Shown here: in pieces, positions 2,197 to 6,090 of the stretch
How positions within the stretch are numbered: position 1 is the first letter of the stretch
Layout of the letters: each line of letters begins with the position of its first letter
DNA from: Candidatus Margulisiibacteriota bacterium
Lineage (GTDB): Bacteria > Margulisbacteria > Riflemargulisbacteria > GWF2-35-9
Reading direction: 5' to 3'
DNA: 35,501 bases
Assembly: GCA_028715625.1 (NCBI GenBank)
Contig: JAQURL010000026.1
Span: 1 to 35,501, forward strand
Made by a program: the position numbers and the translations under genes
Notes under the pieces: model-generated
The model's input: only the letters and a program-made list of their open reading frames with translations
Databases searched by the model: none
What the model was told of the DNA's origin: nothing

Positions 2197-4038
2197 TCAA
2201 AATTCAATAACTACCTCATATATCTTGGTTTTCGTTTTTTTACCTTTAACAGCGATTTCATCTATTAAATTACACTTATAATACTCTTTTACTTTTTCAT
2301 AAGTAAACTCGGATATCAGCAGATAGCATGTATGCTCGGGCGTTGTGTAATTACGGGTTGCCGATTCCAACCTGGCCGCAAGGTTAACCGCGTCTCCTAT
2401 TACCGTATAATCTTTATGCATGTCCGAACCTATATTACCTACAATTACCTCTCCGGTATTCAGGCCCATACCTATATCCAGCACTGTTTTGCCCTGTTCT
2501 TTCCATTTCTGTTGCAAAGCACGCAATTTTTTCAATTGAGCGATGCAGCAGTCCATAGCTATCTTGGGATGATTAGCCAAAGGAAGCGGGGCCCCGAATA
2601 TCGCCATTATTTCGTCACCTACATATTTATCCAGAGTACCGCCGAACTCAAAGATCACCTTGGTCATTTCATCCAGGTACTCATTGAGCTGTTCCACAAC
2701 CTGCGCCGGAGTATGAGATTCACTGAAAGTTGTAAAACTGCGAATATCGCTGAAAAAAATAGTTACTTCTCTTAAGCTGCCGCCAAGCTCAACTTTGTCC
2801 GGATGGGCTAAAAGCTCATCTACAACCGACGGCGCGACATATTGCGAAAAAACACCACGTATTTTGCGCTTTTCTTTTTCTTCACTGATAAATTTAATTA
2901 CTGTCTGGACAACAAATGTAATGAATATTGAAGAGATCAGCGTATAGGTGGGTATTTCCAATCTGAAATATTTAAAAATATAAGCATTTCCTATAAAAAT
3001 TATGGCAGTTTGCACTACAACCAGAAGAAATAGGAATCTGATCTTGAACATATGGCTGATAATTACATTTATATATACAAATAATATGAGCAGGCCGAGT
3101 AAGTAAATAAATGATATTTTTGATATATAAAGACCATCCAGAATTGTTTGTATTACATTGGCGTGAATTTCCACACCGGGCATATTAATATCGAATGGTG
3201 TGGGGAATACATCGTGCAATACTTCTGTGGAGGCCCCGATAAGGACGATTTTACCTTTAAAGAAATCAGGGCTGTCTTTTAAAAAACTACCGTCATATAT
3301 CCTGACATAGGGTACTGTTTCAAAAGTTCTGGACGGTCCGTAATAATTTACAAGTAAATTCTTGCCCTGCAAAGGAATAATATTCCTGCCGCATTTAATT
3401 CTGTTGCCCGGAATTAATAAAATACCAGCCTTATTCTGTATATAACGAACTGCCTGCAGGGCTAAAGAATAGTATTCCTTGTCACCTGAGTGATAAATAA
3501 TCTGGAAACGCCTGACTACGTTATCCTTATCAAAATAAGGATGGACAACTCCCAAGTCCAGGGCTGCGTCATCAAGCATTTTTATAGGTCTTTTGAATGG
3601 TTCGACTTTTACCTTAAAAAAAGCATTTTCTTTAATGTTTTGAAAATTTGCAGCCAATATCACATTTTGCGCTTTTTTTACCGATTCCGCGAATTGTACG
3701 TCGTCCTGCGGGTCAAATTGCGTAGGTGAATCAAAAAAAACATCAAAAAGAATTAAGGCCGCACCGTGTTCTTTGAGAATATCCACGATTTTTGCATGGT
3801 AACTTCTGGGCCATGGCCATTTGGACATCCAGTCTATAGACTCGTCATCCACTGAGACAATTACCACTTTATTGTCAGGCTTTAATTGCCCTCGAAATAT
3901 AAATTTTTGGTTATATGCCGTAAGATTTAATAAATCAATTATGGGAAGATAGGAACCAATACCAATGATAAGGGCAATTATTAAGGATTTAAGGATATCA
4001 GATTTAAATGATTTCCACATCTGACTTGATTTTACCAT
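2197..4038 (-). CDS. CHASE2-domain class III adenylate cyclase
   Basis: This 613-residue membrane protein starts with a transmembrane helix (about 18-38). A periplasmic CHASE2 sensor domain follows (about 42-300, including the VVIVSVDDESI strand), then three transmembrane helices (about 308-382) and a cytoplasmic cyclase domain (about 415-605). Metal-binding Asp431 (FFSDIRSF) and Asp475 (GDEIMAIFG) are present. Lys471 and Asp543 fit the ATP-selecting pair, and Asn552 and Arg556 complete the active site. It should therefore make cAMP from ATP in response to an unknown outside signal. The ATG at 4038 is supported by AAGGTG just upstream and lies inside ispH, giving a 35-base overlap. Met7 (4020) is an alternative start with no clear ribosome site. 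It is the last gene of the map operon. Confidence 0.92.
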   Translation of the reverse strand: MVKSSQMWKSFKSDILKSLIIALIIGIGSYLPIIDLLNLTAYNQKFIFRGQLKPDNKVVIVSVDDESIDWMSKWPWPRSYHAKIVDILKEHGAALILFDVFFDSPTQFDPQDDVQFAESVKKAQNVILAANFQNIKENAFFKVKVEPFKRPIKMLDDAALDLGVVHPYFDKDNVVRRFQIIYHSGDKEYYSLALQAVRYIQNKAGILLIPGNRIKCGRNIIPLQGKNLLVNYYGPSRTFETVPYVRIYDGSFLKDSPDFFKGKIVLIGASTEVLHDVFPTPFDINMPGVEIHANVIQTILDGLYISKISFIYLLGLLILFVYINVIISHMFKIRFLFLLVVVQTAIIFIGNAYIFKYFRLEIPTYTLISSIFITFVVQTVIKFISEEKEKRKIRGVFSQYVAPSVVDELLAHPDKVELGGSLREVTIFFSDIRSFTTFSESHTPAQVVEQLNEYLDEMTKVIFEFGGTLDKYVGDEIMAIFGAPLPLANHPKIAMDCCIAQLKKLRALQQKWKEQGKTVLDIGMGLNTGEVIVGNIGSDMHKDYTVIGDAVNLAARLESATRNYTTPEHTCYLLISEFTYEKVKEYYKCNLIDEIAVKGKKTKTKIYEVVIEF

Positions 4039-4903
4039 AACACCTTAATTTAAATCGAGACTTTAAGGTATTTACCGCTGAATTTATCAGTGATTCGGGC
4101 GTAGAAGCTCCGGAAGATATTCCCAGTTTTTTTACTTTCGAGAGTTTTGATAAAGCAAACTCATCAAGGCAGTCCAGCAAATAAGCTTTTGTTTTTTTTG
4201 AAGCGATTTCCAGAAGACGGTTGGCATTCGAACTGTTTTTTGACCCGATTATCAGCATCAGGTCAACTTTACCGGACAGGTCATCAACGGCTTTTTGTCT
4301 GGCAGTAGTCGCATAACAAATACTGGCAGGTTGTTCATTGTATATCGTTTGGGCAGGTAATGCGCTTTTGATTTTTTCAATAATTTCAAGTACCCAGTCT
4401 GCATTTAATGTGGTCTGACTTAATATAGCAAATTTAGAATGATTGGAAGGTATCTTTTTTACGTCTATTTCGTTTTCAATAAGCGTTGTATGTTTGGGGT
4501 TTTCCGCCATAACACCGGTTACTTCTTCATGATTTTTATGCCCTATATAAATAATATGATAACCTTTACGGCTGTAGGAATGTACTTTTTTATGGACTTC
4601 AGCCACAAGCGGACAAGTGGCGTCTATTATAGTACATTTTTTTTTCTCGGCTTGTTCACGAATTAGCGGAGAAACGCCGTGGGCACTAAAAACGATGACA
4701 CTTTCTTCTGGCAAATCCTTGATATCAAAAATAAAACGCACACCTTTTTTTTGGAAATATTCCACAACTTTTTTATTATGAACTATTTCATTGTAAACAT
4801 AAATTGGCACCGGATACTTTTTTACCAGGTCGTCTACCATTTTAATAGCCCTGGCCACGCCCGAACAGAATCCTCTGGGAGAAGCCAGATAAAGAGACTT
4901 CAT
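4004..4903 (-). CDS. ispH: 4-hydroxy-3-methylbut-2-enyl diphosphate reductase
   Basis: IspH carries out the last step of the MEP isoprenoid pathway, reducing HMBPP to IPP and DMAPP with a [4Fe-4S] cluster. All three cluster cysteines are present: Cys13 (PRGFCSG), Cys97 (DATCPLV) and Cys196. So are the substrate histidines 42, 75 and 125 and the catalytic acid at 126/127 (GHKNHEE). The SSNANRL motif and the ASTPESL loop near the C-terminus complete the family pattern. At 299 residues it has the usual length. It begins three bases after the accB-like gene stops and overlaps the cyclase start, so it is translated as part of the operon. No obvious ribosome site of its own is seen. Confidence 0.96.
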   Translation of the reverse strand: MKSLYLASPRGFCSGVARAIKMVDDLVKKYPVPIYVYNEIVHNKKVVEYFQKKGVRFIFDIKDLPEESVIVFSAHGVSPLIREQAEKKKCTIIDATCPLVAEVHKKVHSYSRKGYHIIYIGHKNHEEVTGVMAENPKHTTLIENEIDVKKIPSNHSKFAILSQTTLNADWVLEIIEKIKSALPAQTIYNEQPASICYATTARQKAVDDLSGKVDLMLIIGSKNSSNANRLLEIASKKTKAYLLDCLDEFALSKLSKVKKLGISSGASTPESLINSAVNTLKSRFKLRCYGKIKSDVEII

Positions 4904-4906
4904 AAG

Positions 4907-5326
4907 TTACAGGTCTCGTACCAGCACAACTTCCTGCCCGTAGCCTACAGGAGTGCCCTCTTCCACAATATACTTGATAAGCTTGCATTCTCTGTCTGCC
5001 AAAATATCATGGTCAATATTCATTGCTCTTACGGTTCCCAAAAGTTTGCCGGGTTTAACCTCAGGCTGGGCATCAATTTCCTTGCTGGACAATTTATGAT
5101 GAAAAAAACCTACATGATTGGATCTGATTACAGAAAACGGTTCTTCCAGAATATTGGCGGAATTTTCTTTCGGCTTTTCCTGATTTGGCACAATAACAAC
5201 CGGTTTTTCTTCTTTTTTTATACTTTTCTGCATTGTTACTTTTATTTCCGTATCTTCAAAATTTAATTTGCTTATACAGGAATTTTTAAAAATCTTGAGA
5301 ATATCTTCAACTTTTTTTACGTTCAT
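4907..5326 (-). CDS. AccB-like carrier protein lacking the biotin lysine
   Basis: This 139-residue protein has the layout of the acetyl-CoA carboxylase biotin carrier. It has an N-terminal helix of the AccB type (MNVKKVEDILKIF, then FEDTEIKV), a charged Pro/Lys linker (about 35-60) and a C-terminal biotinyl/lipoyl-like domain (about 62-139). The hallmark Ala-Met-Lys is replaced by Ala-Met-Asn at 101-103, read directly from the codons GCA ATG AAT. The usual SPMVGTFY segment is also altered (RSNHVGFFHH). It therefore should not be biotinylated. The start has a good ribosome site (GAGGTG) and follows map by 11 bases. It could be a structural paralogue, a regulator of the carboxylase, or a decayed copy; the intact frame and operon position argue against decay. 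Confidence 0.8.
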   Translation of the reverse strand: MNVKKVEDILKIFKNSCISKLNFEDTEIKVTMQKSIKKEEKPVVIVPNQEKPKENSANILEEPFSVIRSNHVGFFHHKLSSKEIDAQPEVKPGKLLGTVRAMNIDHDILADRECKLIKYIVEEGTPVGYGQEVVLVRDL

Positions 5327-5337
5327 ATTTTCACCTC

Positions 5338-6090
5338 TTATATTTTTGTAAGAATTCGCGGTCCGTCCGCAGTAATAGCTATAGTATGTTCAAACTGGGC
5401 TGACCATTTACCATCCAGAGTAACAACAGTCCAGCCATCGCTCAAAACTTTGGATTTCCATGTTCCCATATTGACCATTGGTTCAATGGCAATAACCATA
5501 CCTTCCTTAAGTGGTAAGCCTGTCCCTTTATGGCCATAATGAGGTACTGAAGGTGATTCATGCAAATCAATACCAACCCCATGCCCTGTGTATTCGCGCA
5601 CAACACTGAACCCGTTTGTTTCCACATAGTGCTGAATGGCATAACCGATATCTCCAAGACGTTTGCCGAGTTTTGCCGATTCAATCCCTTTATATAAAGA
5701 TTTCTCCGTTACTTCCACAAGTTTTTTCACTCGTGCTTTGGTTTCACCCAGCAAAAAGCTGCAACAGGAATCACCGATATAACCGTCTTTTTTAAGCCCA
5801 TAATCGACTTTGACCAGATCTCCCTCTTGAAGTATTCTGTCTCCGGGGATACCATGAACTATCTGCTCGTTTATAGACACACAGGTACTGTGGTAATAGT
5901 TGGGAACTTCACGGAATGTTGCAATAGCTTTATTTTTTTCTGCAAACTCGGTTGCCCAGTTATCAATCTCCAGAGTAGTTAATCCGGGCTTTATTTTACC
6001 CTTCAATAATTCAAAAAATTGAGCTACCAGTTTGCCGGCAACTGCGATTTTTTCGATTTCAGCTGGTTTATAAATAGCTTCTCTGCTCAT
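5338..6090 (-). CDS. map: Methionine aminopeptidase, type I
   Basis: Map removes the initiator methionine from new proteins in the cytoplasm. All five metal ligands of the pita-bread fold can be read: Asp96, Asp107, His170 (YTGHGVG), Glu203 (AIEPM) and Glu234 (FEHTIAI). Substrate-binding His79 lies in VHGIPGD. At 250 residues it matches the short bacterial type I enzyme, with no N-terminal zinc-finger extension. It is the first gene of the map, accB-like, ispH and cyclase operon. The 43-base gap to divergent trmB must hold both promoters. No clear ribosome site precedes the ATG. Confidence 0.96.
   Translation of the reverse strand: MSREAIYKPAEIEKIAVAGKLVAQFFELLKGKIKPGLTTLEIDNWATEFAEKNKAIATFREVPNYYHSTCVSINEQIVHGIPGDRILQEGDLVKVDYGLKKDGYIGDSCCSFLLGETKARVKKLVEVTEKSLYKGIESAKLGKRLGDIGYAIQHYVETNGFSVVREYTGHGVGIDLHESPSVPHYGHKGTGLPLKEGMVIAIEPMVNMGTWKSKVLSDGWTVVTLDGKWSAQFEHTIAITADGPRILTKI

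Follow-up and report, generated by a model that had tools for sequence, protein, structure and literature searches.

A family of paralogues of AccB, the biotin carboxyl carrier protein (BCCP) of acetyl-CoA carboxylase, is conserved across an order of the Margulisbacteria (Candidatus Margulisiibacteriota) and is not the oddity of one genome. The member studied here, encoded in the window (the whole stretch of 35,501 nucleotides that was analyzed), has an asparagine in place of the lysine that would bear biotin. Because the outline of AccB is kept, the features of a carrier are lost and a true AccB is encoded alongside, the best account of such a protein may be that it partners acetyl-CoA carboxylase without a catalytic part; by analogy, the chances seem about even that it acts as a non-biotinylated assembly or regulatory subunit of that enzyme, comparable to BADC of plants. 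The window is contig C26 of an assembly (G000) of 2.63 Mb in 127 contigs that is 97% complete, and the search for the paralogue covered all 74 genomes of the phylum. The features on which the argument draws are the following:

4907..5326, minus strand: gene for an AccB-like protein without the biotin acceptor lysine (ORF list, TIGR00531, AlphaFold2 model, Foldseek)
5327..5345, minus strand: region of the ribosome-binding site, AGAGGTG (sequence reading)
5338..6090, minus strand: map (methionine aminopeptidase), upstream neighbor in 7/7 genomes of the order (ORF list, neighborhood comparison)
4004..4903, minus strand: ispH (HMBPP reductase), downstream neighbor in the window and G030, though not in all relatives (ORF list, neighborhood comparison)
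5222..5326, minus strand: AccB-like N-terminal segment, residues 1–35, with a helix (3–16) and a strand (18–22) at low model confidence (pattern common to canonical AccB in alignment A4; model)
5078..5122, minus strand: segment in place of SPMVGTFY plus thumb, residues 69–83, SNHVGFFHHKLSSKE, from which the conserved thumb-region Tyr and Pro are gone (column counts)
5018..5020, minus strand: AAT codon of Asn103, the site of the biotinylated lysine (codon reading; column 164 of alignment A4)

An earlier sequence-only reading had called the frame intact and the ribosome site good, and both descriptions hold: the gene runs for 139 codons from an ATG at 5326 (4907–5326 includes the stop codon), and AGAGGTG ends 5 bases ahead of the start. 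Its remark on the tight spacing between map and ispH stands as far as the distances go (11 bases from the end of map at 5338 to the start at 5326 and 3 bases from the end of the gene at 4907 to the start of ispH at 4903), but the adjacency to ispH is lineage-specific and map is the constant neighbor. Throughout the seven genomes of the order the paralogue lies directly behind map, co-directional and with its frame intact, whereas ispH is not adjacent to it in G028, G029, G031 and G032, which rules out a general functional link to ispH, and in G033 one gene stands between the two. Further along the window, a gene for a CHASE2-like sensor with a class III nucleotide cyclase domain (2197–4038) shares 35 bases with the end of ispH; a CHASE2/cyclase gene of similar kind, identified by eye, directly follows the AccB-like gene in G031 and G032.

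Profile comparisons indicate that the window gene is a paralogue of AccB by homology and not by chance. The NCBIfam model of BCCP, TIGR00531, matches residues 1–137 over profile positions 1–155 of 156 (E=1.4e-13), and a profile of the paralogue family matches E. coli BCCP (4hr7) at 5.2e-17. The TIGR00531 score of 51.6 bits is nonetheless below half of the curated equivalog cut-off of 115.2 and a Pfam search of the protein gave no family at E=1 or better; thus, current annotation would not confidently call it AccB. An AlphaFold2 model built on 39 aligned sequences predicts a confident biotinyl barrel at residues 61–139 (block means of pLDDT 88–96), with the thumb region as a short helix (81–85), and places Asn103 in the turn of the hairpin formed by strands 95–101 and 104–109; the N-terminal part is poorly modeled (46–68). 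Among the best Foldseek matches in the PDB are 1bdo, the biotinyl domain from E. coli (the best, E=4.1e-5), and the BCCP chains of the E. coli BC–BCCP complex 4hr7. The layout of the 139-residue protein—an N-terminal AccB-like segment, a linker and a biotinyl fold, as had been proposed from the letters alone—is borne out by the full-length TIGR00531 match, the model and Foldseek, and the exposed hairpin, which a structure prediction had been expected to reveal or deny, is kept in the model.

What has been lost is the carrier site. In the A4 columns, 26/26 canonical AccBs have Glu100, Ala101, Met102, Lys103, Leu104, Asn106, Glu107, Ile108 and Glu109, whereas the window protein reads R-A-M-N at the acceptor motif, with Asn103 at the lysine position (the change from Ala-Met-Lys to Ala-Met-Asn through an AAT codon being as first read) and with Glu100 also gone. 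Column 164 holds Lys in all 26 canonical AccBs and Asn in six of the seven map-linked paralogues. A sequencing error or frameshift at the AAT codon, which the sequence-only reading had itself named as its possible undoing, is ruled out, since Asn stands in this column in five independent relatives. Glu100 is absent in 13/13 paralogues, as is Glu109 (0/13), and the window protein has Gly128 vs Glu in every other aligned sequence. Positions 100 and 128 correspond in E. coli to Glu119 and Glu147, which presumably matter for recognition by BirA; a literature search for a role of these two residues in BirA recognition found no paper stating it. The equivalent of SPMVGTFY is SNHVGFFHH, in agreement with the initial description, and the thumb differs in its defining residues: Tyr76 is present in 26/26 and Pro81 in 25/26 canonical AccBs, vs 1/13 and 0/13 paralogues, respectively. 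A thumb with Tyr and Pro is a requirement for function in E. coli (as cited in PMC11926652), and the change of the acceptor from Lys to Ala ends biotinylation of the Chloroflexus BCCP domain (PMC11077971). Given that precedent and the loss of both the acceptor lysine and the recognition motif, the prediction that the window protein should not carry biotin at site 103 is well supported, and the earlier claim of a non-biotinylated protein may be retained for that site. As an observation in its own right, 11 of the 13 paralogues have a cysteine, Cys114 (window 4985–4987), where Gly is invariant in 26/26 canonical AccBs; a redox or metal site is conceivable here.

A true carrier is encoded in the same cell. 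G000 has one canonical AccB, on contig C66, with SPMVGTFY and IEAMKLFNEIE, adjoining efp and recJ, which rules out the loss of all AccB function in the genome. The biotin/lipoate ligase family is matched once. The sequence-only reading had suggested looking for a second accB with Ala-Met-Lys next to accC; the gene and its AMK are there, but by efp and recJ and not by accC. The six relatives of the order each have an AccB of their own as well, that of G031 being a contig-end fragment in which the acceptor was not read. AccC was not found in the G000 assembly (97% complete), while the six relatives, each of them bearing the paralogue, do have it, and in the three examined it lies beside nusB and ribE; the NusB gene was likewise not found in G000, in a search run without a positive control. 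As the six relatives have accC and this neighbor is missing together with it, the absence of accC from G000 is probably an assembly gap. A tie of the paralogue to the absence of biotin carboxylase is ruled out by the same relatives.

The acceptor triplet within the order is AMN in the window, G028 and G029, SMN in G031, G032 and G033, and SMK in G030. A second AccB-like clade occurs between leuA and mtaB in 6/8 genomes of the Candidatus Termititenax family, with AIG (Gly) in four members and AMK (Lys) in two (G035, G036) and with no acc gene linked. A scan of genome_contigs gave no match to the window protein; with the Termititenax clade as query, named records came up, from which the family and the phylum (Candidatus Margulisiibacteriota) take their names here. 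The loci are:

L076, 2974–3387: G030 member with a Lys acceptor (SMK, codon AAA)
L081, 3648–4085: Termititenax clade
L087, 229–690: Termititenax clade
L083, 807–1271: Termititenax clade
L080, 1898–2323: Termititenax clade
L090, 3001–3420: Termititenax clade

The two clades have in common VGxF in place of SPMVGTFY and are possibly related; in the tree each forms one group, and a single origin is neither shown nor rejected (53/87). The AIG members carry a Lys-rich N-terminal extension. The question, raised at the outset, of whether Asn is conserved at the acceptor site can thus be answered with yes for 6/7 genomes of the order, but with Lys in G030 and Gly or Lys in the Termititenax clade. A genome with no other AccB and Lys in all close relatives, the other outcome that had been named as adverse, was not what emerged: there is a separate AccB, and one of the seven has Lys. 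The lysines of G030, G035 and G036 are what might favor the family being a second, specialized biotin carrier, of which some members are biotinylated, Asn and Gly mark local losses and the window copy is dead at the site. However, these three members too are without the Glu of E-X-M-K and the F-N-E-I-E that follows, and G030 branches from within the Asn members (with only moderate support), its Lys codon one third-position base away from Asn (AAT/AAA), so that this Lys may have been regained by drift; a second carrier is accordingly an improbable reading.

Beyond the home phylum (74 genomes), the survey took in the phylum of a Lachnospiraceae MAG (398 genomes), nearly all of the genomes used in the analysis being draft or metagenome-assembled. 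Among the best 30 profile matches in the 398 genomes, 29 were readable and all of these were canonical AMK carriers. A pattern for the exact AMN form gave 10 matches in the same 398 genomes, but not one had the 90 bases expected of a true member; run on the home phylum, the pattern found five of five expected members along with two chance matches. In the literature, no description of a bacterial acceptor-less AccB paralogue was found.

Could the family simply be a decaying, functionless duplicate of accB? It does evolve faster than canonical AccB, with identities of 58% vs 86% (G028/G029) and 30% vs 60% (G000/G030), and its acceptor residue is variable. Against this, the frame is intact in 7/7 genomes of the order at the same place behind map, an identity of ~30% inside the order is far past what a pseudogene survives with an open frame, and Nei–Gojobori dN/dS is 0.16 for G031/G032 and 0.19–0.28 for three Termititenax pairs, estimates that come from other members of the family, as the window gene has no relative close enough for one of its own. 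Decay is largely refuted by these frames, positions and ratios and has only a slim chance of being right. With dN/dS of 0.16–0.28 the members are not pseudogenes, and the family is maintained under purifying selection, in line with the first reading, in which the intact gene argued for function. The faster evolution relative to AccB also speaks against a BADC-like role, since it implies that the surface for a partner is under no tight constraint.

The main rival to a BADC-like role is that the paralogue has left acetyl-CoA carboxylase altogether, its biotinyl barrel now serving a different partner as a small scaffold or adaptor. The gene neighborhoods count for this and against the BADC-like role: no acc gene lies near the paralogue in any genome, and the neighbors belong to two unrelated settings, map (often with ispH) or leuA/mtaB. 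So does the loss of nearly all carrier-defining surface motifs, the thumb included; in plant BCCP1 the thumb is the surface contacting BADC, and it is altered in the window paralogue and deleted in those of G031 and G032. The lineage-specific Cys114 might point the same way. Yet the AccB-specific N-terminal segment is still recognizable in the map-linked clade and is scored by the full-length BCCP model, and a wholly new role would have no need of it; a departure from the enzyme is therefore rather unlikely. That the protein is a paralogue of the carrier with a structural or regulatory part in acetyl-CoA carboxylase, as suggested from the beginning, is plausible. In this BADC-like role, the kept N-terminal segment and biotinyl barrel would most likely still let it dock into the enzyme complex, by way of AccC or of AccB itself, and the docked protein would be a non-catalytic subunit that either helps the complex to assemble or fills carrier positions and lowers activity, like BADC. 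That it touches either of these proteins, and in which direction it acts, is what we infer.

Acetyl-CoA carboxylase catalyzes the committed step of fatty acid synthesis, and control by an acceptor-less carrier has been described for plant plastids; to our knowledge, such control by a BCCP paralogue is so far known only from there. If it also operates in these bacteria, the principle would be older or would have arisen twice, and a small, expressible system would be at hand for deciding between assembly and inhibition, a matter disputed in plants (PMC11926652). In either case, an AccB-like annotation is no guarantee of a biotin carrier.

A comparison may finally be drawn with three known systems. 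With AccB/BCCP (TIGR00531) the paralogue shares domain order, length, the N-terminal segment, the biotinyl barrel and Y-G-Q near the C-terminus, but it is without the acceptor lysine, E-A-M-K-L-F-N-E-I-E and the thumb Tyr/Pro, and is not beside accC or efp. With the single-domain biotin/lipoyl attachment protein 1z6h it shares the biotinyl/lipoyl barrel (family profile match E=1.2e-4), whereas 1z6h is a chain of 72 residues that has no AccB N-terminal segment; single-domain proteins of this kind carry a modifiable lysine. A further parallel is with BADC1-3 of Arabidopsis, BCCP paralogues of ~25–30% identity without the acceptor motif that reside with a true BCCP in the same compartment; the window protein is likewise a BCCP paralogue without AMKL, with a true BCCP in the same cell. 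The plant paralogues, which lack AMKL and are 25–30% identical to BCCP, form complexes with BC and BCCP and exert control over the enzyme; some studies report them as inhibitors and others as an assembly 'glue', a point still disputed (PMC11926652). The bacterial proteins differ in having Asn, Gly or Lys at the site, and any binding or regulation by them is putative; what links them to BADC is that both are BCCP paralogues. By that analogy, the family may tentatively be seen, at somewhat less than an even chance, as the bacterial equivalent of BADC, joining acetyl-CoA carboxylase in Margulisbacteria and tuning it.
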